Positions 1,285-10,946 of a stretch of DNA of 23,861 nt are shown here, one piece after another. The stretch is from positions 1 to 23,861 of IMG/VR virus record IMGVR_UViG_3300023210_002044; one strand, written 5' to 3'. Position 1 is the stretch's first letter. Every line of letters starts with the position of its first letter. The DNA comes from a virus. The translations under genes and the position numbers were made by a program. Below the pieces are notes generated by a model. It did no database searches. It saw only the letters and a program-made list of their open reading frames with translations, and was not told the DNA's origin.

Positions 1285-1432
1285 GAGGTATTTTCTTCTC
1301 TGTCTTGCGATGGTAATCTTTTAGAGACTTGTGTCCCCACCCTGGTTTTGCAACTGGTATTCTTCTCTTAACCTGTGTCTTTTTCTTCTTGGCGTTTCTT
1401 CGCCTCTGCCTCGCACGGCGTGCACGTTTCAT
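1277..1432 (-). CDS. Small, very basic 51-aa protein of unknown function
   Basis: A 52-codon frame starting at ATG 1432, behind a GAGG/GGAG-like site. Its first 65 bases lie out of frame inside the 3' end of the HExxH gene. Its stop overlaps the MazG-like ATG (ATGAATAA). The first 24 residues are almost all Arg, Lys, Ala and Gln (MKRARRARQRRRNAKKKK). The rest reads VAKPGWGHKSLKDYHRKTEK and then an acidic end, which looks like a real ordered segment rather than chance. It exactly fills what would otherwise be an 84-base gap, which is unusual in this tightly packed operon. It may bind nucleic acid, judged only from charge. No family recognised. The alternative is a chance frame opposite the basic tail of the upstream protein. 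Confidence 0.5.
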   Translation of the reverse strand: MKRARRARQRRRNAKKKKTQVKRRIPVAKPGWGHKSLKDYHRKTEKKIPHE

Positions 1433-2177
1433 GACTCCATTCCTCATTATTTATCTGCAAATTATTTATCATATCTTTAGTTTTCTTTTCGTTACTGAGG
1501 ATAGAAATCCACGACGTTGCATACGCAAGGAAGTCCACTACACTCATAAAGTTTCTAGTATCTTTACGAAGATCTCCGTAAAGTTTAGTGAGATCATTAT
1601 GACATGGAATTAGGTTAGATGTCAAAAGAGAATTCCAACTTTCTTCGTCGTCACTAAAGACCAGGCCATGAAACATATCATGGTTTGACAGGAAGCTTTG
1701 CCACTTGTCTGAGATGTATGGCAGCTCTTTCTCAATCCAGGCATTTATGTACATGTCCTCTACAAAGTTCCTCTCTTTTATTGTAAGAGACTCTTTTACT
1801 TCTTCTGCTTGACCAAAGAATATTCTGTCACAGATATGATGCATGTATTCATGAACCATGAAGCTTAGTATATCTTCGTAGTCTGAAACGAAAGCGATAA
1901 AGAAGTCTGAGTATAGCGTCAGAACATTTCCTCTTGCTCCGCCTTCTCCCCATTCTTCTTTGTAGTCTGCGTCCACGAATTCGATAGTAATGCACTCGCA
2001 CCAATTAATAAAATTCCTACAAAGAACTTCATCTTTAAAGTTCTGTTCCGATAGATATATAAAGCTCTCTGACTTTAGTATTTCTTTCATTATGTGAGAG
2101 GGTATATACTTCTTGCCTAGTGATAGGTATTTCTTTATGTCTCTTAAATTTTCATTTGCATAAGACCAGTCTGCCAT
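1368..2177 (-). CDS. Putative HExxH zinc metallopeptidase-like protein
   Basis: A 269-residue protein with FMVHEYMHHICDRIF at about 107-121, where H109, E110 and H113 form a zincin HExxH motif. About 20 residues later, NFVEDMYINAW offers an acidic third-ligand candidate. It resembles the H-E-x-x-H plus E/D-x-x-I-N arrangement of predicted DUF2201-type metallopeptidase domains; this is pattern memory, not a search. There is no signal peptide or membrane segment. The C-terminus has a CTPC pair followed by a charged tail that overlaps the small basic gene. The ATG overlaps the stop of the 296-aa gene (TAATGG) behind GGGG. Its place at the end of the radical SAM gene run suggests it could cleave a modified peptide or virion protein, but its own sequence does not show this. 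Peptidase-like fold likely; activity unproven. Confidence 0.6.
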   Translation of the reverse strand: MADWSYANENLRDIKKYLSLGKKYIPSHIMKEILKSESFIYLSEQNFKDEVLCRNFINWCECITIEFVDADYKEEWGEGGARGNVLTLYSDFFIAFVSDYEDILSFMVHEYMHHICDRIFFGQAEEVKESLTIKERNFVEDMYINAWIEKELPYISDKWQSFLSNHDMFHGLVFSDDEESWNSLLTSNLIPCHNDLTKLYGDLRKDTRNFMSVVDFLAYATSWISILSNEKKTKDMINNLQINNEEWSHETCTPCEAEAKKRQEEKDTG

Positions 2178-3067
2178 TATAACCCCGTTACTATATATTC
2201 CCAGCGAAGCTTTTCTTTATCATTTATAAAGTCACCGAGTAATTGATTCTGCACACCTATTACTAGTGGTGTGTCTTTTGTGTGAGCTAGCGATATATGT
2301 GTTCCACCATGCATGCCACTATGACTAGTCAAGTGTGACCCTGCATCTTCTCTGTAGTTTATCTCTAGCTTAAGTTGTAGAAAAAATTCTTCTCTATCCT
2401 CTGGCTGTATGATTGAATCTTTTAACATATCTATTACACATAGTCCGCCAGAAACTATATGACCAGCACATAGCTGGGGAGTGATATCCATTGTAAAGAT
2501 GCTGTCTTTGTATGTATCTTTTATTCCTTTAATGTGTTGAATCCAACAGTCGCCTTCAAGCTCTACGTGAGATGCACTCTGTACTAACGTGGGATTTAAG
2601 ACTAGGTAATAGACATTTGTTCCTTGTAGCTTAGTCATCATCATGTAGCAGTAATGGGGTGTCTTCTTCTCTTTCAAGTCGTTTGCTGTAGTGTAGAAGG
2701 AGGAGTATAGTAAGTCGGCTTCAGAGTTTGAAGTCGCTTCAGACACCATTAGTCCTATATTATTATCGTCAGCCATTCGCATCAAAGATGCTATACTAGG
2801 TCTAACAATCGCACCGCCGAAGGATACTAGGGCGATCTTATCACAGGGTAAGTTAAAGGGTTCCTGTAGGTTGGTCTTAGCTGTTAGCATCATAGGATGG
2901 TTACCAACTAATCCGGCCGCTTCATCAGCGGGCATTAATTTTATTTTGTACGGAGCTTGTCCGATCAAAGGGGTATAGAAGTCATCGTCTTTACATAAAT
3001 ATTCAGTAAGATTATTATAAAGGGTAGACGAGTACGTCTCGTCTTTAATGAAGACGTAGTTACGCAT
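2177..3067 (-). CDS. Unknown 296-aa protein, His-rich near the C-terminus, in the radical SAM operon
   Basis: I do not recognise a family. The protein is soluble, with no clear signal peptide or membrane segment. The N-terminal half is mixed alpha/beta with a Gly-rich stretch (ALVSFGGAIVRPS, about 79-91). The C-terminal third holds a dense histidine run, SHLTSHSGMHGGTHISLAH (about 244-262), that could bind metal. Several isolated cysteines are present but no CxxC pair. ATG at 3067 has AGGAG six bases upstream, and its stop overlaps the next start, so it is a firmly expressed operon member. Placed between the Cys-tail peptide and the HExxH protein, it could be a partner, carrier or substrate of the maturation enzymes, or a virion protein; neither is shown. 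Confidence 0.65.
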   Translation of the reverse strand: MRNYVFIKDETYSSTLYNNLTEYLCKDDDFYTPLIGQAPYKIKLMPADEAAGLVGNHPMMLTAKTNLQEPFNLPCDKIALVSFGGAIVRPSIASLMRMADDNNIGLMVSEATSNSEADLLYSSFYTTANDLKEKKTPHYCYMMMTKLQGTNVYYLVLNPTLVQSASHVELEGDCWIQHIKGIKDTYKDSIFTMDITPQLCAGHIVSGGLCVIDMLKDSIIQPEDREEFFLQLKLEINYREDAGSHLTSHSGMHGGTHISLAHTKDTPLVIGVQNQLLGDFINDKEKLRWEYIVTGL

Positions 3068-3090: not shown

Positions 3091-3300
3091 TTAGAGGATA
3101 CCTCGACACTGACAGTTGCAGGCACATTGGCATTGACATGCGCTACCATAGTTGTCGGTATAGGTGTGGTTGTGGCTTAGAAGTTCATCAAGGATGTCTA
3201 ACATCTTCTTGAAGGTCTCAGCCTCTACTGTCTCTCTCTTTTGTTTCGTTGGCACTGGGCCAGACGAACTTGTTTTTGTACTTGTGCTATCTGTTGTCAT
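3091..3300 (-). CDS. 69-aa protein with HxH motif and six alternating cysteines at the C-terminus (candidate radical SAM substrate)
   Basis: The first 24 residues are Ser/Thr/Lys-rich and probably disordered. A short amphipathic helix follows (ETFKKMLDILDELL, about 28-41), then HNHTYTDNYGSA (43-54), then cysteines at 55, 57, 59, 61, 63 and 65 separated by single Gln, Ala or Asn residues, ending RGIL. This helix-plus-Cys-core layout is what a precursor of a radical SAM modified peptide (sactipeptide or ranthipeptide class) could look like. Four radical SAM genes lie just upstream in the same operon. The HNHTYTDNY part also resembles the HxH motifs in the next gene upstream, so a small virion or metal-binding protein is an equal alternative. 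The gap to the gene before it is three bases and the ribosome site is weak, suggesting coupled translation. Confidence 0.7.
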   Translation of the reverse strand: MTTDSTSTKTSSSGPVPTKQKRETVEAETFKKMLDILDELLSHNHTYTDNYGSACQCQCACNCQCRGIL

Positions 3301-3303
3301 ATA

Positions 3304-3693
3304 TTATAAGGATGCGTCATCCCACTCATGATGATGAACGTGGGCATAGTTATTAAAAGTATCTATAAGTGTAAAAATATTATCTGCCATAGTTCCGTGA
3401 TCGTCGTCATCAAACTCAACAGTATAGGTTTCATCTGTAGCTCCAATTACATTCGTTGATGTAACAGTTCTAGCTGATGTTGGATGCGGATTTGTATTCG
3501 GGTAAGCTGCATAGATCAAGTCATACATCTGATGACTGTGTAGTCTAAAAAGATTATAAGTATCCTTTATTAAATCTATGTCTGCAGGAGTGACTCTTAG
3601 TCTTGATGCAATTTTCCCATTTAGGATACCAGTATTCGTACTGATTTGTCCATCAATATTTACAACCCCTGTAGTCCTACCTGTTGTCGGCAT
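3304..3693 (-). CDS. 129-aa protein with two helix-HxH motifs; possible virion protein or second modification substrate
   Basis: The N-terminal part is Thr/Gly/Ile-rich (GRTTGVVNIDGQISTNTG), like a beta-structured phage structural protein. Two segments share a pattern of helix, histidines and aromatic residue: TYNLFRLHSHQMYDL (about 46-60) and TFNNYAHVHHHEWDDASL at the very end (112-129). The same pattern occurs in the 69-aa Cys-tail protein downstream (LDELLSHNHTYTDNY), so the two may be related or handled by the same enzymes. Between them lies an acidic stretch with four consecutive Asp. ATG at 3693 lies inside the 3' end of the SPASM radical SAM gene and has AGGA seven bases upstream. No family named with certainty. 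Histidine pairs of this type occur in phage tail proteins as metal sites, which is the basis of the structural suggestion. Confidence 0.65.
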   Translation of the reverse strand: MPTTGRTTGVVNIDGQISTNTGILNGKIASRLRVTPADIDLIKDTYNLFRLHSHQMYDLIYAAYPNTNPHPTSARTVTSTNVIGATDETYTVEFDDDDHGTMADNIFTLIDTFNNYAHVHHHEWDDASL

Positions 3694-4936
3694 CTTTCTT
3701 TCCTAGATATCTTATATCTGATCCAAACAAAAGCCTGAATGCGGCCAGTTGAATCTCTGAGTTATGTACTTTCAAGAGTGCACAGCTTCTAGACCTAAAG
3801 ATATCAGCAAGTTCTAGAGGGCAACCCTTATTACATAGTAACAGAACAGGACAGTTAACGCAACCATCGCCGTTACCATTATGCTCTCGCATAAAATCTA
3901 GCTTAACTTGTTTAACTTCTTCTATCTTATCTAGTGTTCCACACTTATGTCCATCTGATCCGACCATTGGGCAGGAGATAACGTCTCCATTAATATCCAC
4001 TGATATAAGCTCAGTCCAATCTGCTCCACATCTAGACTTAAGTGAAGTCTGTTTGGTCCCCTTGATAGATTCAGCAAATTGCCTGACTTCTCGCATAAGG
4101 TTGTTGTTATCGTCCCGTCTGTATCTTGAGAAACAAAAGAAGTGACGTAAGGAATCTCTATACCGTTCGAGATTCTCACCCGAGATTGTTTTTGTGTATG
4201 ACATGAAATCATATGATTCTACCTTATCAAATTCCATCCCCATTCGGGTCAGGTCGTATCTGCTCTTCAGTTCCATAAAATGTGACCATACTGCTCCAAC
4301 GTCCCAGTTATCTTGAGACATCGTGGCATTTAAACTGTAAGAAATACTAGTACTTTTATCTAACGAACTTAGGACATGTCCAAGACGCGGAAAAGGATCC
4401 CTTCCCCTCACATTCTTATGACCTGTCTTCCCTCCATCATGTGATATTCCAATGGCTATGCTTCCCTTCATTGCTCCAAGATATTCTACATGCTTGTAGT
4501 TTAATAATGTTCCATTAGTAGGCAGATACCAAACCACCTCTTCTCGGTCTAACACCTCGAAAATACGTTTCATTGTAGGCCAGTAAGCAAATGTCTCACC
4601 ACCCCACAGCTCAACACGTTCTAAGCCGTCCAGATCTAGCTTCTGTAGATCCTCTAGGAACTTATCCACGTTAGGATCCAGGATATCATTAAGGCCTGCC
4701 AGGTCCTCTTGCAGGCAGTAAGAACATGACATGTTGCACAGCTTTCCCATAGCAATTCTTAGATGCTTTGGCCGCCTGCTCTTCGTCAGCTGTCCTGACT
4801 CAGGTAAATGTCCATGTCCTTTCTTGTCCAATAGTATTGGATTCATCTGTGTGTCATAAAGACTATTGTCTCTATTGTCATACAGGAACTCAACATCAGT
4901 ATCGACAACAAGGAATCTAGATATAGGTTGTGTCAT
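3677..4936 (-). CDS. Radical SAM/SPASM enzyme (anaerobic sulfatase-maturase/peptide-maturase type)
   Basis: A 419-residue radical SAM protein. An N-terminal extension of about 60 residues, of the kind some peptide maturases use to hold their substrate, precedes the SAM cluster motif GKLCNMSCSYC (C67, C71, C74). The SAM-binding strand has GGE (VELWGGETF). The C-terminus carries a textbook SPASM domain: C-x13-G-x4-C (starting CGADWTEL), then CVNC-x5-C-x3-C, then a last Cys (SRSCALL), enough for auxiliary 4Fe-4S clusters. SPASM enzymes modify peptides or proteins, for example by thioether or C-C bonds or by oxidising sulfatases. Of the four radical SAM genes here it lies closest to the two His-motif genes and overlaps the first of them, so it is the prime candidate to act on one of them. 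Its start overlaps the stop of the zinc-ribbon gene. Confidence 0.9.
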   Translation of the reverse strand: MTQPISRFLVVDTDVEFLYDNRDNSLYDTQMNPILLDKKGHGHLPESGQLTKSRRPKHLRIAMGKLCNMSCSYCLQEDLAGLNDILDPNVDKFLEDLQKLDLDGLERVELWGGETFAYWPTMKRIFEVLDREEVVWYLPTNGTLLNYKHVEYLGAMKGSIAIGISHDGGKTGHKNVRGRDPFPRLGHVLSSLDKSTSISYSLNATMSQDNWDVGAVWSHFMELKSRYDLTRMGMEFDKVESYDFMSYTKTISGENLERYRDSLRHFFCFSRYRRDDNNNLMREVRQFAESIKGTKQTSLKSRCGADWTELISVDINGDVISCPMVGSDGHKCGTLDKIEEVKQVKLDFMREHNGNGDGCVNCPVLLLCNKGCPLELADIFRSRSCALLKVHNSEIQLAAFRLLFGSDIRYLGKKDADNR

Positions 4937-5097
4937 TCTTCCTCATATTCCAGGTCTTCTTCGTGGATATAGTATTCGTCCCACTGCTCTCCACACTCCT
5001 GGCATATAATATGCTCTATGTATGTGTCACCTGCTCCGCCTTCATTGTCATAAATGTCTATTGATTCTGATTCACAGCTTGGGCATTCGATTTTCAT
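4933..5097 (-). CDS. 54-aa zinc-ribbon protein inside the radical SAM operon
   Basis: A small frame that exactly fills the gap between two radical SAM genes: its ATG overlaps the upstream stop and its TGA overlaps the downstream ATG, both as ATGA. It has CPSC at 5-8 and CQEC at 32-35, a four-cysteine zinc-ribbon arrangement, with an aromatic middle (IDIYDNEGGAG) and a strongly acidic tail (HEEDLEYEEE). Such small ribbons often act as adaptors to nucleic acid or protein. Here it could be a partner of the radical SAM enzymes, but only position suggests that. The double translational overlap makes the gene convincing despite its size. Confidence 0.75.
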   Translation of the reverse strand: MKIECPSCESESIDIYDNEGGAGDTYIEHIICQECGEQWDEYYIHEEDLEYEEE

Positions 5098-6200
5098 TTT
5101 ATTACCTCTATAATACTCTTGACCCCAACGGAATCTCTTTTGAGTATTCCTAGGTCAGTCTCTATCCAGTCTTCTTTTTCTATCATTCTGTTATACCATT
5201 CAGCATAAGAGTTTAAGAGTGGAGCTGGAACAAAATTAAAGTCATGGTTAACACGAAACGTATCGCCACAGTGTCTGAAATATTTAACATAGTGTGCGTC
5301 ATCATTCGTTAAGACCTTACCATTATCTTTATAGATGTCTAGCTTGGCTTGTAGAACCATAGGAAGGACATCACTAAAATCATGTAGATCATAAATGCTA
5401 CCTATCCTAAACTTGTTTTCTTCAGGTGTAAAGTTTTTCAACTCCATATATAAATCATCAAAGGCACAAAATGTAACCTGATTCAATACAGAGAAAGGAC
5501 CGAAACCTTCTGAGTAGATAGCATGTGCTGCGTTCTCTACCTTGGTCCAATCCTTTAAGAAATTATGATGATGGTATGTATCTACCCCGTAACCTCTCAA
5601 GAACTTAAAGAACTTTTGAACTTCCCTTATGTCTTGTCGGCTTGCACCATTGTTTCCAGTGATAACTTTGACATGTTTGAGTGTATATCTTTTTACAATA
5701 TTCTTAAACATGCCTTCTAATTTTTTTCTATTTTGTGAAACGAACTTATCACTAAAGCTCATCTCATATATGTCTTTGAATTTCATTTCCTTCATCATTA
5801 TATCGTAGTGATAAAACAATGCCTGATCTGATATCGATGACAACATAAACTTTTCAGAGTTTCTTTTGTAGAAATCATACTGAAGAGGAAAGTTTTTCTT
5901 AAGATATCTCATGTCATCTATAGTAGAGAGCACAGGATAATTCTTTGCAAACTCAAAGAATAGATGCTCCCACTCTGGAGTGAGATTCTTATTTGTATAC
6001 TCAGCAAATGGTGCAAACTTCTTCTCGTCCATCCATGTGCTTCCAAGGTAACACATCCTGCACCCTGCTATACATTTATATCTTTTGTTTAAAGTTAATA
6101 CTAATTCATAATCTAATGTTCTTAGAGAGTCTTGCTTCAAGAAATACTCAGAGAACTTATTTTCTTTTGTGTCTAGAAAATCCGCTTGACTATCTGTCAT
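5094..6200 (-). CDS. Atypical radical SAM protein without SPASM domain
   Basis: A 368-residue protein with a radical SAM cluster motif RYKCIAGCRMCYLG (C-x3-C-x2-C, near residues 42-50). The usual GGE SAM-binding motif is not evident, and there is no auxiliary-cluster Cys set at the C-terminus, so it differs from its three neighbours. The central part is rich in aromatic and Lys residues. A histidine cluster, DTYHHHNFLKDW, lies at about 205-216. ATG at 6200 overlaps the stop of the upstream radical SAM gene (TAATGA), and its own stop overlaps the zinc-ribbon start. It could be a distant radical SAM enzyme with a different substrate, or a scaffold keeping only the cluster. The radical SAM call rests on the Cys motif and on context; function is unknown. 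Confidence 0.7.
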   Translation of the reverse strand: MTDSQADFLDTKENKFSEYFLKQDSLRTLDYELVLTLNKRYKCIAGCRMCYLGSTWMDEKKFAPFAEYTNKNLTPEWEHLFFEFAKNYPVLSTIDDMRYLKKNFPLQYDFYKRNSEKFMLSSISDQALFYHYDIMMKEMKFKDIYEMSFSDKFVSQNRKKLEGMFKNIVKRYTLKHVKVITGNNGASRQDIREVQKFFKFLRGYGVDTYHHHNFLKDWTKVENAAHAIYSEGFGPFSVLNQVTFCAFDDLYMELKNFTPEENKFRIGSIYDLHDFSDVLPMVLQAKLDIYKDNGKVLTNDDAHYVKYFRHCGDTFRVNHDFNFVPAPLLNSYAEWYNRMIEKEDWIETDLGILKRDSVGVKSIIEVIK

Positions 6201-7243
6201 TACCTTACTGCCTGTGTGAGATCCTTATACTTTGACAACCTATCGTAATGATCCACGATGGCCTCTTGGTACGTGTAGAACTTCTCGCATTCACCGGTCG
6301 GTGTCTCGTCAAAAAGTTTATACAGATATTTTATACCACAATTGTAGAATTGACTACAACTATGACACGAGACAGGAGAAAGAAATGCATCAGCATTTGT
6401 CCACCTGTTCAGATATTCTTTGTCTTTCCAGCTACCTATCCTCGCATCCTTAACTTGATAGTCTAAGAAATCAAACTCAGGGTAGATGTAACCATCGGGA
6501 GATAGTATTATCTGTTTGTGATTATTAAAATATGTCTTTTGAATACCATGACTATGTCCGTCAATAGAAACTTTTATTTTTAATACGTATAACATCTGAA
6601 TAAATTGTAGAAAGCCACGCATGAAGTCTTGAAGATTAATAGAATCCATGATATTTCTAAACTTAGTCTTTCCACGAATGTGACGTAATGGAATTAAAGT
6701 CAACATTCCAATATGGAATCTCTTGTAAAGGTTAGTGATTCGTTCCAACACTTCTATGTTAAAGCATTCTTTGTCTCTCATATCTATAACCCATTGGAGT
6801 TGAGTTATCTGACAATTATATTTTTCCAATAGATGTAGTACATCTTTGATGTCTACAGTATAACCTCTGTTATCTTTCATCTTTGTAAAGTCATAACTAA
6901 TGGATATATTTAAATACTTACCGTAACGGTTGAGAAACTCTTCGTTTCTCTTAAGTAAAGTTCCATTGGTTAATATAGAAAACCTTGGGTTAGCTCTAGT
7001 AGCTATGAAGTAGTCTATTATCTCAGTCATCTGTTTAGTGTATAGAAATGGTTCACCACCATGGAACCCTATCATGGGATCCTCTTCGTCTTTGGTGATT
7101 GAATCTATATAATTTATTAGCTGAGGTATGTCTTTAGAATCTAATCTAGTATCGCCTATATCTGATTTGATATAGCCTCTATCACAATAGGAACAATCCT
7201 GGTTGCAATAGCTTCCTAAGTATATGATAGTCGCATGTTTCAT
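6200..7243 (-). CDS. Radical SAM enzyme with truncated SPASM-like cysteine tail
   Basis: A 347-residue radical SAM protein. The SAM cluster cysteines sit close to the N-terminus (LGSYCNQDCSYC; C13, C17, C20), with a clear GGEP motif (IGFHGGEPF) and TNGTLL on the next strand, as in peptide-modifying members. Near the C-terminus CHSC, NCG and ECEKF give a reduced set of cysteines (C-x2-C-x5-C and one more), compatible with one auxiliary cluster (a twitch or shortened SPASM). The usual C-x(9-15)-G-x4-C half is replaced by a Cys-free LSPDGYIYPEFDF segment. Unlike the 419-aa enzyme it has no long N-terminal extension. Start and stop both overlap neighbouring genes, so it is expressed together with the other maturases. 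Confidence 0.88.
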   Translation of the reverse strand: MKHATIIYLGSYCNQDCSYCDRGYIKSDIGDTRLDSKDIPQLINYIDSITKDEEDPMIGFHGGEPFLYTKQMTEIIDYFIATRANPRFSILTNGTLLKRNEEFLNRYGKYLNISISYDFTKMKDNRGYTVDIKDVLHLLEKYNCQITQLQWVIDMRDKECFNIEVLERITNLYKRFHIGMLTLIPLRHIRGKTKFRNIMDSINLQDFMRGFLQFIQMLYVLKIKVSIDGHSHGIQKTYFNNHKQIILSPDGYIYPEFDFLDYQVKDARIGSWKDKEYLNRWTNADAFLSPVSCHSCSQFYNCGIKYLYKLFDETPTGECEKFYTYQEAIVDHYDRLSKYKDLTQAVR

Positions 7244-8706
7244 TATGCCAGCTTTTCAAGTTGTTTCTCTAACCTTTTTTCAAGAGTCTCTTCTTCGTTC
7301 TTCTTCGGACTAAGCATGAAATGTAATAATGAAATATTATATATGTCATTCTTTGTTCCTGAATCTCGACCACACATGCTAACAAAGCTTCTGCTATCAA
7401 CAGAACCCTCAAAGGATTCTATTTCTTTTCTAACAAGTCCTATGTCTTGGGCCAGATTAAACTCTGGGTTAGCAACAATGAAACCCATTAGCTTTTCGTA
7501 ATGAGGTAGCTTCATTCTCTTGAGCGATTCAAAGGGTATGTAGTGTCCAGACCTTAGTCTATATATTAGTTGATAAATAGCCCTGGAGAAGACGATGTCG
7601 CCTTCTTCTTTGAATGCATCCCTGATTTTGTTTGTGAGCTTGTAGAACTTCTTGTGGTTCTCATCTCTTCTGAGAGTGAGGAATAGCTTGACGATTCTTT
7701 GGCACATGGAGTCTGACCTAAACATTTTCTTTGAACCTGTACTGAGATTTCCTGCAGGACATTGGTAGCAATAGTTTTCAAGCTCGCAAGTATGACATTT
7801 CTCGTCTCTGGCGAAATGTTCCTCATAAGATTTTTCAAAATCATCATATCTGTCTTCATGTGTTACTCCCGTAAATAGGTTGCCAAGTATAGTATCTGGC
7901 AATGCATCTTTTTGATTTGTAAAGAAGTAGCAACCAGAGTATTCACCAGTACCATCCATTGCGATCATGCTGTCACCAACCATACAGTTGGAGCTACAGC
8001 TTTTCGTGCCAGTACCTTCTGAGAAGTGTATTACAAACTCATCATCATTCTGAATAACATCTTTAAGTATGCCTTCTAATTTGTTCCACTCTTCTTCTGA
8101 CCAGTCTATAAAGCCTTGCTCTGCTGACATAGTAAGTGGATGTATCACCATACTCTTGACGCCTATGCCTTTTAAGATAGCAAGGAAGTCCTCAAGATGT
8201 GGTAGTGTCTCTCTGCTTAGAGTGCATCTTATAGTTAGGTCACCCCCAACTCTAATGATACTCTTGCAGTGATTCAATATCTCATTCACCCCTTTCTCTG
8301 AGGAGTGTCTGTGTTCTACGTCAGACTTGTGTGAGTCTAGCGAGATCATTATCTGTGTGTTGTCATGACTGAAGTACTCTTCGATAAAAGCATCCGTCAG
8401 CAAGGTTCCATTAGTTACCATGGATATCTTTACATCAGGATGCTTCTCGAATTCTCTCTCGTATTTTCTCAGGAATGCCAAAATCAATCCTTTCTGCAGG
8501 AGAGGTTCTCCTCCAAAGAATTGAAAATATTTCTCTTCGTGTTCATTAGCTTGGATTAAAAAATCATAGGCTGTCTTTAACGAATCGACTGTGAAGTTTT
8601 CGTATAATTTATTATGCTGCTCGTAACAATAGTCACACTTTTTATTACAAGCATTCGTAAGTATTAAGTTCAGGTGTTGTAGATTCTGGAATCTTTTGTT
8701 GTTCAT
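7243..8706 (-). CDS. Radical SAM/SPASM enzyme with C-terminal extension
   Basis: A 487-residue radical SAM protein with LTNACNKKCDYCYEQ (C20, C24, C27), FFGGEPLL for SAM binding and MVTNGTLL on the next strand. A SPASM domain follows: CSSNC, then C-x12-G-x4-C (ends GEYSGC), then CHTC-x5-C-x2-C and a final MCQRI Cys. The spacing in the last half is one residue shorter than canonical. Beyond the SPASM, about 135 residues of mostly helical, charged sequence follow (KKNEEETLEKRLEKQLEKLA at the end), a probable coiled tail not typical of short maturases. The ATG region overlaps the end of the upstream 157-aa gene by 62 bases. It begins the four-enzyme run. Peptide or protein modification is inferred from SPASM family knowledge; the substrate is unknown. 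Confidence 0.9.
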   Translation of the reverse strand: MNNKRFQNLQHLNLILTNACNKKCDYCYEQHNKLYENFTVDSLKTAYDFLIQANEHEEKYFQFFGGEPLLQKGLILAFLRKYEREFEKHPDVKISMVTNGTLLTDAFIEEYFSHDNTQIMISLDSHKSDVEHRHSSEKGVNEILNHCKSIIRVGGDLTIRCTLSRETLPHLEDFLAILKGIGVKSMVIHPLTMSAEQGFIDWSEEEWNKLEGILKDVIQNDDEFVIHFSEGTGTKSCSSNCMVGDSMIAMDGTGEYSGCYFFTNQKDALPDTILGNLFTGVTHEDRYDDFEKSYEEHFARDEKCHTCELENYCYQCPAGNLSTGSKKMFRSDSMCQRIVKLFLTLRRDENHKKFYKLTNKIRDAFKEEGDIVFSRAIYQLIYRLRSGHYIPFESLKRMKLPHYEKLMGFIVANPEFNLAQDIGLVRKEIESFEGSVDSRSFVSMCGRDSGTKNDIYNISLLHFMLSPKKNEEETLEKRLEKQLEKLA

Positions 8707-9118
8707 TCTGCTTCCTTTGAAAGAACTTGATGTGCTCTATTATATCAGAGTCTAGCTCAGCCTCAAGTGGAACAATACCATGTATCTCCGTGCCTATGCT
8801 TTCCAGCTTGCCATAGTAGTTCATCTCTCCTGTTCCAGAGAATCCAATATGGAAAGTATCATAGGTAACTGTGACTGGGTCTACGTCAGTCTCCCATAGT
8901 AATGTAATCTCACCATGTGGCATACCCATTGTGTCTTCCAGTTCTGGAAGGTCAGCAAGTGGTATAAAATTTTGTATATATTCAAAGAAAAGTCTTATCT
9001 CTGGTATGACAGCAGGATCTATAGAGACGCCTCTTCCGCCACACCATCCATACCTGTCACATGTAGAGACAATTATGGGCAAATGATTTAATAACTTTTC
9101 AAGATCTTTTCGGTCCAT
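8645..9118 (-). CDS. Unknown 157-aa protein
   Basis: No family recognised. The first 60 residues include a Cys/Gly-rich start (STCDRYGWCGGRGVSIDP, about 18-35). The middle is beta-rich with alternating hydrophobic and aromatic residues (GEITLLWETDVDPVTVTYDT), and the last 30 residues are polar and Gln-rich. There is no signal peptide or membrane segment. Start at 9118 has AAGG eight bases upstream and overlaps the upstream gene by 20 bases. The 3' end runs 62 bases into the radical SAM/SPASM gene, so the two are probably coupled. A role with the radical SAM genes is possible from position only. Confidence 0.6.
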   Translation of the reverse strand: MDRKDLEKLLNHLPIIVSTCDRYGWCGGRGVSIDPAVIPEIRLFFEYIQNFIPLADLPELEDTMGMPHGEITLLWETDVDPVTVTYDTFHIGFSGTGEMNYYGKLESIGTEIHGIVPLEAELDSDIIEHIKFFQRKQNEQQKIPESTTPELNTYECL

Positions 9119-9407
9119 CTAATATGCCTTGTTTAATAAAGAAGTTGTGAGCGGTGTTAAATTCCTCAGCGTCTCCAATCTTTACAAAGTTAGATGATTG
9201 GATTGGATCGACTGCAAGCTTGCTTGCCTTTTCTATCCATAGCTGGTCATTAGTCTCATTAGTAAAAGCAATATACAAATCAAATGTATCTTCTGCTACA
9301 CCAACAAGAAAGTATCCAGAGTCAGTTAGACTATTAGCGGGTATACGATGATACTCTCTCTTGTGCCATTTAACTTTGTCTTTTGATAAGGGGTATTTAA
9401 GAAACAT
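9099..9407 (-). CDS. Unknown 102-aa protein
   Basis: No family recognised. It is a soluble, mixed alpha/beta small protein with a hydrophobic strand core (GYFLVGVAEDTFDLYIAFTN) and no cysteines, signal peptide or membrane segment. Its ATG region overlaps the end of the 119-aa zinc-ribbon gene by one base, and its end overlaps the next gene by 20 bases, so it is a regular member of the leftward operon. Confidence 0.6.
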   Translation of the reverse strand: MFLKYPLSKDKVKWHKREYHRIPANSLTDSGYFLVGVAEDTFDLYIAFTNETNDQLWIEKASKLAVDPIQSSNFVKIGDAEEFNTAHNFFIKQGILDGPKRS

Positions 9408-9766
9408 TATTGAACCGGAATGAACTTTCCATCATTGTCAGAGTCGCTTTCTCCACCTACAAAAGCCGCTGTTCCTTGCTGGATTTTACGTGGCCTATGC
9501 TTAGGTTTTGGTTCAATAATCTTCCCCTCTAATGCACCCTGAATGATTGCATAGAGTTCTTTATCTTCTTCAGTTGAATTAAAGTAATTAAGAGGAGGCA
9601 TCATATAGACTCCACACTCTCCGTTAATACACTGGTATATTTTAATATCATGGTCAGGTTCTACTTCATGCATAGACATATGCAATCCGCCGCCCGTTCC
9701 TTTGAACTGATTCACTTGTACTTTGGCGAAATATGTGTTCCCACATTTACATTTTACACCTGCCAT
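9407..9766 (-). CDS. 119-aa zinc-ribbon protein of unknown function
   Basis: Two cysteine pairs about 40 residues apart, CKCG at 6-9 and CINGEC near 46-51, suggest a zinc ribbon with an inserted Gly/His-rich loop (FKGTGGGLHMSMHEVEPDHD). The C-terminal half has a basic patch (KPKHRPRK) and then an acidic Asp/Ser stretch, both probably disordered. The start at 9766 lies inside the end of the upstream gene. Phages often encode such small ribbons near replication or structural genes; I cannot assign a role. Confidence 0.6.
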   Translation of the reverse strand: MAGVKCKCGNTYFAKVQVNQFKGTGGGLHMSMHEVEPDHDIKIYQCINGECGVYMMPPLNYFNSTEEDKELYAIIQGALEGKIIEPKPKHRPRKIQQGTAAFVGGESDSDNDGKFIPVQ

Positions 9767-10210: not shown

Positions 10211-10492
10211 CTATTTTGCTCCTAGTGGCAGGGCATGAGAATGACCGTCGGCCTTTGGTATAACATTGTAGGCAACGATCTTATGGTTGTGACCATCATC
10301 TACGCTTGTCTTACCGTCTCCGTTGTCATCCAGTGTGAATGAATGATCGTGATCATCTTCTACTGATGTCCTCGTTAATTTAATAGTACCATCTTTAACG
10401 TCTTTGAAATATTTCTCATTGACTTCTTGTGTACCATCATCATTAATTTTGAGGACCGTCTTTCCCGACTTGGGGTTTATAAATTTATCCAT
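10211..10492 (-). CDS. 93-aa His-motif protein with EF-hand-like loop; possible virion/tail-associated protein
   Basis: Three short repeats of Asp/Gly-His-x-His occur: DDHDHSF (46-52), DGHNHKI (66-72) and DGHSHAL (82-88). Between the first two, DDNGDGKTSVDD (55-66) fits the 12-residue calcium loop pattern D-x-N-x-D-G with an acidic residue at position 12. The N-terminal part is Lys-rich beta-like sequence (SGKTVLKINDDGTQ). HxH repeats of this sort occur in phage tail and baseplate proteins as metal sites, which is the only reason for the structural guess. It shares the HxH theme with the proteins at 3304-3693 and 3091-3300. The start overlaps the end of the HNH-AP2 endonuclease gene. Confidence 0.65.
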   Translation of the reverse strand: MDKFINPKSGKTVLKINDDGTQEVNEKYFKDVKDGTIKLTRTSVEDDHDHSFTLDDNGDGKTSVDDGHNHKIVAYNVIPKADGHSHALPLGAK

Positions 10493-10946
10493 ATTTTTCT
10501 ACCTCTTCTAAGTATGCTGTTCTAGCATCCTCTTCTGTATTGTATCTACCAATCTGTTTTGTCTTCTTGTCTCTAGAAAGCGTGGCTCTCCATTTATTCC
10601 TAGAAGGATCAAATGAAACACCCTTATATTTCGATGTTGAATTTTTGAATTTCCCTCTATTGAGACATTGCTCTGTGCTGGTAGCCCATTTGCAGTTGGC
10701 TGCATTATAGCCCTTATTATTATCTACTCTTTCAAGAGTCATTCCGTCTGGTCTAGCTCCCATATCTTTTAAGAAATTCTTAAACTCAAACCAGTCAACT
10801 GAAATATCTAGTCCTCCATATTTGTTGTAGGCAGGGTTCTTAGGGTTGCAGCACCTTTGTATCATTTGGTTCCAAGTTTGGAGCAGCGGATGTCCTTTAA
10901 GTCCAGAGTTATTTCTTAGCTTCTGGCTTCTGGTGAACTTGTCCAT
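10485..10946 (-). CDS. Free-standing HNH-type endonuclease with C-terminal AP2 domain (homing-endonuclease-like)
   Basis: A 153-residue protein. The N-terminal half matches the phage HNH family that begins TWNQMIQRCCNP and continues through YGG...I...W..F..FL to LERVDNNKGYNAANCKWAT (71-89). The C-terminal half, SKYKGVSFDPSRNKWRATLS through GRYNTEEDARTAYLE, is an AP2 DNA-binding domain. This combination is typical of selfish endonucleases that move between phage genomes by cutting the uninvaded allele. It sits neatly between two operon genes, overlapping the 78-aa gene by 38 bases and the 93-aa gene by 8. It starts MDKF like the 93-aa protein that follows. AGGAG lies eight bases before its ATG. 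No intron is evident, so it appears free-standing. Confidence 0.88.
   Translation of the reverse strand: MDKFTRSQKLRNNSGLKGHPLLQTWNQMIQRCCNPKNPAYNKYGGLDISVDWFEFKNFLKDMGARPDGMTLERVDNNKGYNAANCKWATSTEQCLNRGKFKNSTSKYKGVSFDPSRNKWRATLSRDKKTKQIGRYNTEEDARTAYLEEVEKYG

Follow-up and report, generated by a model that had tools for sequence, protein, structure and literature searches.

A conserved phage cassette of four radical SAM enzymes and a cysteine-repeat protein, probably for maturation of a small tail-associated protein

The closest described counterparts of the locus analysed here are the PapB and CteB maturases of ranthipeptides and SCIFF peptides. Related chemistry also occurs outside natural-product pathways: QhpD installs Cys-Asp/Glu thioethers in the gamma subunit of quinohaemoprotein amine dehydrogenase, a working protein and not a natural product. 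We examined a stretch of viral DNA of 23,861 bases (IMG/VR record IMGVR_UViG_3300023210_002044, positions 1 to 23,861; hereafter the window), which carries on its minus strand a cassette of four radical S-adenosylmethionine (SAM) genes, running from RS1 to RS4 over 8706-3677 (-), together with the gene for a small cysteine-repeat protein, C69. This cassette resembles the PapB and CteB systems in the domain layout of RS1 and in its small peptide with a C-terminal cysteine-rich core and D/E/N/Q spacers. It differs from them in the score of RS1 (134 versus 340 bits), in having four radical SAM genes instead of one, in its phage tail partners and in the lack of a protease or exporter, and it differs from QhpD in lacking haem-protein subunits.

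Groups of radical SAM genes have been described in phages before, with 11-12 in Campylobacter phages CP220 and CPt10 (PMC2853527), 8 within the structural cluster of Aeromonas phage 332-Vera (PMC12390700) and 12 in a T4-like Tara genome (PMC5332604). These groups were called highly unusual and given metabolic explanations or none (PMC2853527, PMC12390700, PMC5332604). An earlier reading of the window from sequence alone (the sequence-only reading) had argued that a set of four is a rarity because such genes usually occur singly in phages, an argument that these reports of 8-12 genes contradict. The CP220/CPt10 and 332-Vera modules, the latter compared by description only, are similar to the cassette in that several radical SAM genes stand together near spike or structural genes. 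In CP220 (locus L206, 10691-17722), a module of five radical SAM genes lies a short way past the genes for a PAAR spike and a gp5-like baseplate lysozyme. We rejected this module as a homologue of the cassette because it contains no open reading frame (ORF) with a CxCxC peptide, and it differs further by its amidinotransferase and glycosyltransferase genes; a spike-adjacent module of this kind suggests that tail-linked radical SAM groups may be broader than the C69 cassette. Within the open-licence literature, which includes neither subscription papers nor preprints, we found no report of the system, none linking phage radical SAM genes to a conserved peptide, and no phage described as making a peptide or virion protein modified by radical SAM enzymes.

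A seven-gene set kept together in unrelated phages

RS1, C69 and RS3 each served as an independent bait against 2.9 million viral contigs, and RS1 was also run against 84,980 GTDB species genomes. After merging of duplicates, 44 distinct loci were retained, 37 complete and 7 partial. The four enzymes, C69 and two further protein families, k1 and k2, are all present in every one of the 37 loci not cut by a contig end, and all 7 partial loci end inside the cassette at the contig end. Scans driven by C69, RS1 and RS3 converge on the same loci, and the retention of the whole set in 37/37 complete loci is not a chance outcome. Relatives with the small proteins but no enzymes, which the sequence-only reading had named as evidence against a joint system, were looked for, and the outcome did not refute such a system. 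In the window, the cassette comprises the following genes, two accessory ORFs included:

7243..8706 (-), 487 amino acids: RS1, radical SAM enzyme with SPASM cysteines
6200..7243 (-), 347 amino acids: RS2, radical SAM enzyme with a twitch-like C-terminal cysteine set
5094..6200 (-), 368 amino acids: RS3, divergent radical SAM enzyme without an auxiliary cluster (PHROG phrog_36229)
4933..5097 (-), 54 amino acids: zinc-ribbon-like ORF between RS3 and RS4, overlapping each by 4 nucleotides
3677..4936 (-), 419 amino acids: RS4, radical SAM enzyme with SPASM cysteines
3304..3693 (-), about 128 amino acids: H129, of family k1, with helix-HxHxxxD modules
3091..3300 (-), 69 amino acids: C69, candidate substrate with a cysteine repeat near its C terminus
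2177..3067 (-), family of about 300 amino acids: g296, of family k2, beta-rich and fast-evolving
1368..2177 (-): pep269, accessory gene, with HEYMH in the window copy

Along the run from RS1 to pep269, the junctions measure -1, -1, -4, -4, -17, +3, +23 and -1 nucleotides (minus denoting overlap), with overlaps of 1-17 nucleotides and a widest gap of 23 nucleotides in the run down to pep269; spacings of -17 to +23 nucleotides indicate one translation-coupled run that reaches down to 1368. The coupling of four radical SAM genes through overlapping stops and starts, claimed earlier, is thus borne out, with RS1-RS3 joined by 1-nucleotide overlaps and the 54-amino-acid ORF, which occurs in the window and in no other cassette locus, set between RS3 and RS4.

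Gene order is far less constant than gene content. The window has RS1-RS2-RS3-RS4-k1-C69-k2, most relatives have k1, C69 and k2 ahead of RS1, and one group has k1 between RS3 and RS4, so that the k1-C69-k2 block can precede the enzymes, follow them or be split around them. As to the wider neighbourhood, whose conservation the sequence-only reading had proposed to check, the seven-gene set is common to all complete loci, but the other window genes recur only in L004, a relative 81-90% identical, with the exception of pep269, distantly related genes of which occur in three loci. Linkage has therefore been kept despite rearrangement. The carriers are unrelated phages and the cassette has probably spread horizontally among them.

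The set is nearly exclusive to phages. A true RS1 occurs in 3 of the 84,980 GTDB genomes, namely a Bdellovibrio metagenome-assembled genome (MAG), an Alteromonadales MAG and Ewingella americana E4, and all three hold the full set including C69. Their contigs are probably phage contigs, since the neighbours include baseplate-wedge, tail-fibre and virion structural proteins. The next RS1 matches in GTDB drop to about 24% identity, and the other 77 GTDB loci fetched contain no match to RS3 or C69. In relatives of the window, the cassette likewise adjoins tail-fibre, baseplate-wedge or virion-structural genes.

A search of a cultured-phage collection, in a copy without RP12, by tblastn with RS1, RS3, C69 and k1, and also with queries from locus L118 and the Ewingella contig, returned nothing relevant. 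The carrier of L118 is itself almost certainly the cultured Ralstonia phage RP12, judging from several agreements. Its k2 and DUF3050 proteins give end-to-end PHROG profile matches at self-match scores, and in fold its k2 agrees with a UniProt entry from RP12 of equal protein size (295 amino acids). The RP12 paper lists ORF76 (radical SAM), ORF77 (Fe-S oxidoreductase), ORF79 (MoaA) and ORF80 (MgoB) under 'other genes' (PMC5468394), an order that fits RS1, RS2, RS4 and DUF3050 and leaves ORF78 for RS3. The annotated genes of RP12/RP31 are compatible with the cassette in their order, but the authors listed them one by one and named neither the C69 peptide nor a system. All Pfam-detectable radical SAM genes of the L118 phage lie within the cassette. 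For RP31, a virion proteome of 32 proteins has been published (PMC5468394).

In the window, a separate insertion of about 440 base pairs (10493-10933) carries a 153-amino-acid ORF (10485-10946) of homing-endonuclease-type appearance; L004 has no insert, and its flanks join at the matching point.

Four radical SAM enzymes and their cysteine clusters

The CX3CX2C motif is invariant or near-invariant in all four enzyme families and places RS1-RS4 in the radical SAM superfamily; Pfam Radical_SAM recognizes RS1, RS2 and RS4 above its cut-off. RS1 (motif C20/24/27) keeps the auxiliary cysteines C241/259/304/307/313/316/335 in 38/38 sequences, and RS4 keeps C303/322/359/362/368/372 in 29/29 and C385 in 25/29, so that each has the seven conserved C-terminal cysteines of a SPASM auxiliary cluster. 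RS2 has the twitch-type C-terminal set C293/296/302/319, kept in all 30 sequences, and RS3 has no auxiliary cysteines. This agrees with the earlier assignment of two SPASM enzymes, one with a shortened set and one with none, and the pattern extends to the relatives.

RS3 is a divergent radical SAM enzyme without an auxiliary cluster, as its predicted structure and its motif suggest. It stays below the Radical_SAM cut-off, has no Pfam or NCBIfam match, and a sequence search against solved structures gave none either. Plain Foldseek on the predicted model (mean pLDDT, the predicted local distance difference test, 82.7) returned mostly TIM barrels at E > 0.01, whereas a second structural alignment was clear, with radical SAM enzymes filling the top 32 matches and SuiB the best at Z 9.9. 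At about 10 this Z is modest; much of the argument is carried by the CX3CX2C motif (C43, C47, C50), kept in 29/29 relatives.

Comparison with subgroup models, proposed earlier as a check, succeeded for RS4, which passes TIGR04085 for SPASM (33.6 against a cut-off of 27), but not for RS1, which despite its SPASM cysteine pattern remains below the Pfam SPASM cut-off (13.5 against 21.5) and that of PapB. The nearest curated model to RS1 is nevertheless the PapB ranthipeptide maturase (E 5e-39), and its nearest solved structure is CteB (5wgg; E 4e-23). RS4 is likewise most similar to PapB and QhpD-type models, and both RS1 and RS4 match TIGR03906 (QhpD) weakly, far below its cut-off. A single-enzyme deazapurine role was rejected, as QueE-like PHROG scores lie far under the scores to phrog_1802. 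So was a viperin-type defence role, NF038283 giving 30-63 bits for RS1, RS2 and RS4 against a cut-off of 180; PADLOC viperin-type matches are weak and span the radical SAM core only.

Three further observations concern the enzymes of relatives. Most have an N-terminal extension of RS1 (for example L012, 9761-10030) that the window copy lacks and that might be a peptide-recognition domain, perhaps an RRE-like one. Locus L005 carries a second, diverged RS1-like SPASM gene (8420-9694) inside the cassette, between RS3 and its relative of pep269. In 8 loci the cassette is accompanied by a radical SAM protein of B12-binding type that may act as an additional modifying enzyme (L031, 5288-7330).

C69, its partners and the accessory genes

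C69 proteins span 63-122 amino acids and consist of a variable N terminus, a conserved helix, the motif HxHxFYDDY, a series of C-x-C repeats and an RGxx end; the window copy reads HNHTYTDNY, then CQCQCACNCQC, and ends in RGIL. Residues H43, H45, D49, C59, C61, R66 and G67 are invariant. The number of cysteines in the repeat varies, with 3 in 5 loci, 4 in 4, 5 in 29 and 6 in 3, yet the spacers are restricted in all 41 sequences to N (54), Q (44), A (26), E (18) and D (11). In all 37 complete loci this short protein is encoded next to the modifying enzymes, as expected of the precursor of a ribosomally synthesized and post-translationally modified peptide (RiPP). On these sequence features C69 is the substrate candidate, better placed than the product of 3304-3693.

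The sequence-only reading had noted small His/Cys-rich proteins here and had offered the products of 3091-3300 and 3304-3693 alike as substrates. The proteins are real, but they are not alike: the cysteine-rich one is 3091-3300, and H129, a relative of C69 without the cysteine tail, is for that reason the weaker candidate and more likely a structural partner than an equal substrate. Family k1 is distantly related to C69, with the helix-HxH module occurring twice and no cysteine tail. One member carries a Gly_rich_2 domain (L115) and another a Hint-like one that scores under the Pfam cut-off (L078, 4724-6082). H129 and its k1 relatives are probable tail- or fibre-associated partners. Family k2 evolves fast (median identity 0.17) and is present in every complete cassette; g296 of the window is a member (hmmsearch 5e-13; hhalign probability 96%). 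The predicted k2 model is beta-rich (pLDDT 86) with no clear enzyme match in its fold; a comparison with the PDB gave no informative match, and the only strong match is to one RP12 UniProt protein. Some loci carry accessory genes between k1 and k2, whose sequences point to a class III aminotransferase and a fatty-acid desaturase as the likely products (L012, 7396-8670 (-), and L009, 6263-7051).

The accessory gene pep269, found in 4 loci (the window, L005, L118 and L126), had been taken as an HExxH peptidase-like part of the pathway. We rejected it as an HExxH zinc metallopeptidase because it is rare and because the catalytic Glu of HEYMH is not conserved in its three relatives (HTCLH, HVMGH and HVYSH), in which only HxxxH is kept. 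A DUF3050 (PF11251) gene is more widespread, occurring in 23 of the 37 complete loci (E 1e-76 in one relative); the window has none, but its contig stops shortly after the operon. The DUF3050 family has been placed in the haem-oxygenase-like di-iron fold (PMC4520260).

Maturation of C69 weighed against its alternatives

Our results suggest that the cassette is probably a phage system for RiPP-like maturation of C69, a small tail-associated protein. In the mechanism we propose, C69 would be recognized through its conserved helix and HxHxFYDDY and modified in a core formed by its C-terminal C-[N/Q/D/E/A]-C repeat. There, RS1 and RS4 would introduce radical linkages, most likely thioethers that join Cys to a carbon of a neighbouring D/E/N/Q residue, in the manner of PapB, CteB and QhpD. 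RS2 and RS3 may make further changes or play a partner role, and the DUF3050 di-iron oxidase may take part in many phages. H129/k1 and g296/k2 would probably serve as tail-associated partners in binding or presentation. Once rigidified, the tail of C69 would work within the particle, probably at the tip of a fibre or of the baseplate. We favour thioether maturation of C69 because of the invariable linkage, the enzyme class, the composition of the cysteine repeat, the tail-gene context and the tolerance of PapB towards Cys-Xn-Asp motifs with n = 0-6, both nested and in-line (PMC9413430). Peptide or protein maturation, the function put forward by the sequence-only reading, thus stands as the best interpretation of enzymes that are inseparable from a cysteine-repeat protein in complete loci and lie among tail genes in relatives.

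Several points weigh against this interpretation. RS1 scores 134.3 bits on the PapB equivalog model NF047865, whose cut-off is 340, so the type of bond is proposed from resemblance only. The conserved core of the set contains no leader-removing protease or exporter, unlike classical RiPP pathways, although these are a common and not a universal criterion of RiPP clusters. The window cassette adjoins replication genes and not tail genes, so that tail adjacency is not universal. Distances between C69 sequences correlate with those between enzymes (r 0.82 with RS1 and r 0.82 with RS4), but these correlations, computed without an outgroup marker, indicate co-inheritance and not contact. Finally, k1 and k2 are linked to the enzymes as tightly as C69 and could be substrates too.

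This last point also leaves room for a reading that we consider unlikely, in which C69 is not cross-linked: its cysteine repeat and HxH would bind a metal or Fe-S cluster at a spike or fibre tip, while the radical SAM enzymes modify k1, k2 or a fibre protein. The invariant HxH of C69, which recurs in k1, and an evenly spaced CxCxC, a plausible metal ligand, fit this arrangement as well as the equal linkage of k1 and k2 does. However, the enzymes resemble Cys-modifying peptide maturases, the restriction of spacers to N/Q/D/E/A suits cross-link acceptors, and a repeat number varying between 3 and 6 would be odd for one fixed metal site.

More doubtful still is the idea that modified C69 is cleaved and released during infection as a RiPP natural product or peptide-derived cofactor, be it an antibacterial, a signal or a redox cofactor like pyrroloquinoline quinone (PQQ). 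The PQQ route also pairs a SPASM radical SAM enzyme with an enzyme of haem-oxygenase fold, and the precursor-like size and C-terminal core of C69, the SPASM enzymes and DUF3050 in 23/37 complete loci would all agree with it; neither a conserved protease nor a transporter accompanies the set, though, and the k1 and k2 partners look structural and the neighbours are tail genes. Least probable, to the point of being very unlikely, is an auxiliary metabolic or host-takeover module whose targets would be small molecules or host proteins and in which C69 would serve as adaptor. Earlier authors proposed a metabolic benefit for phage radical SAM genes (PMC2853527), and the radical SAM cores do match viperin-like models, weakly, but the set is nearly phage-exclusive, travels with virion-type proteins and has no above-cut-off match to a known metabolic pathway enzyme.

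Maturation of C69 lends itself to a direct test, since a cultured phage (RP12/RP31) whose virion proteome has been measured is almost certainly among the carriers. In its fullest form, which we put forward tentatively and hold at somewhat less than even confidence, the proposal describes a virus-exclusive system in which several radical SAM enzymes cross-link or rewrite the cysteine-repeat tail of a virion tip protein, RiPP chemistry here building a part of the particle. If true, this would explain the puzzling groups of radical SAM genes beside tail genes in some large phages, and it would add a new class of SPASM substrate, with alternating cysteine repeats, and a novel type of protein tip, hardened chemically.

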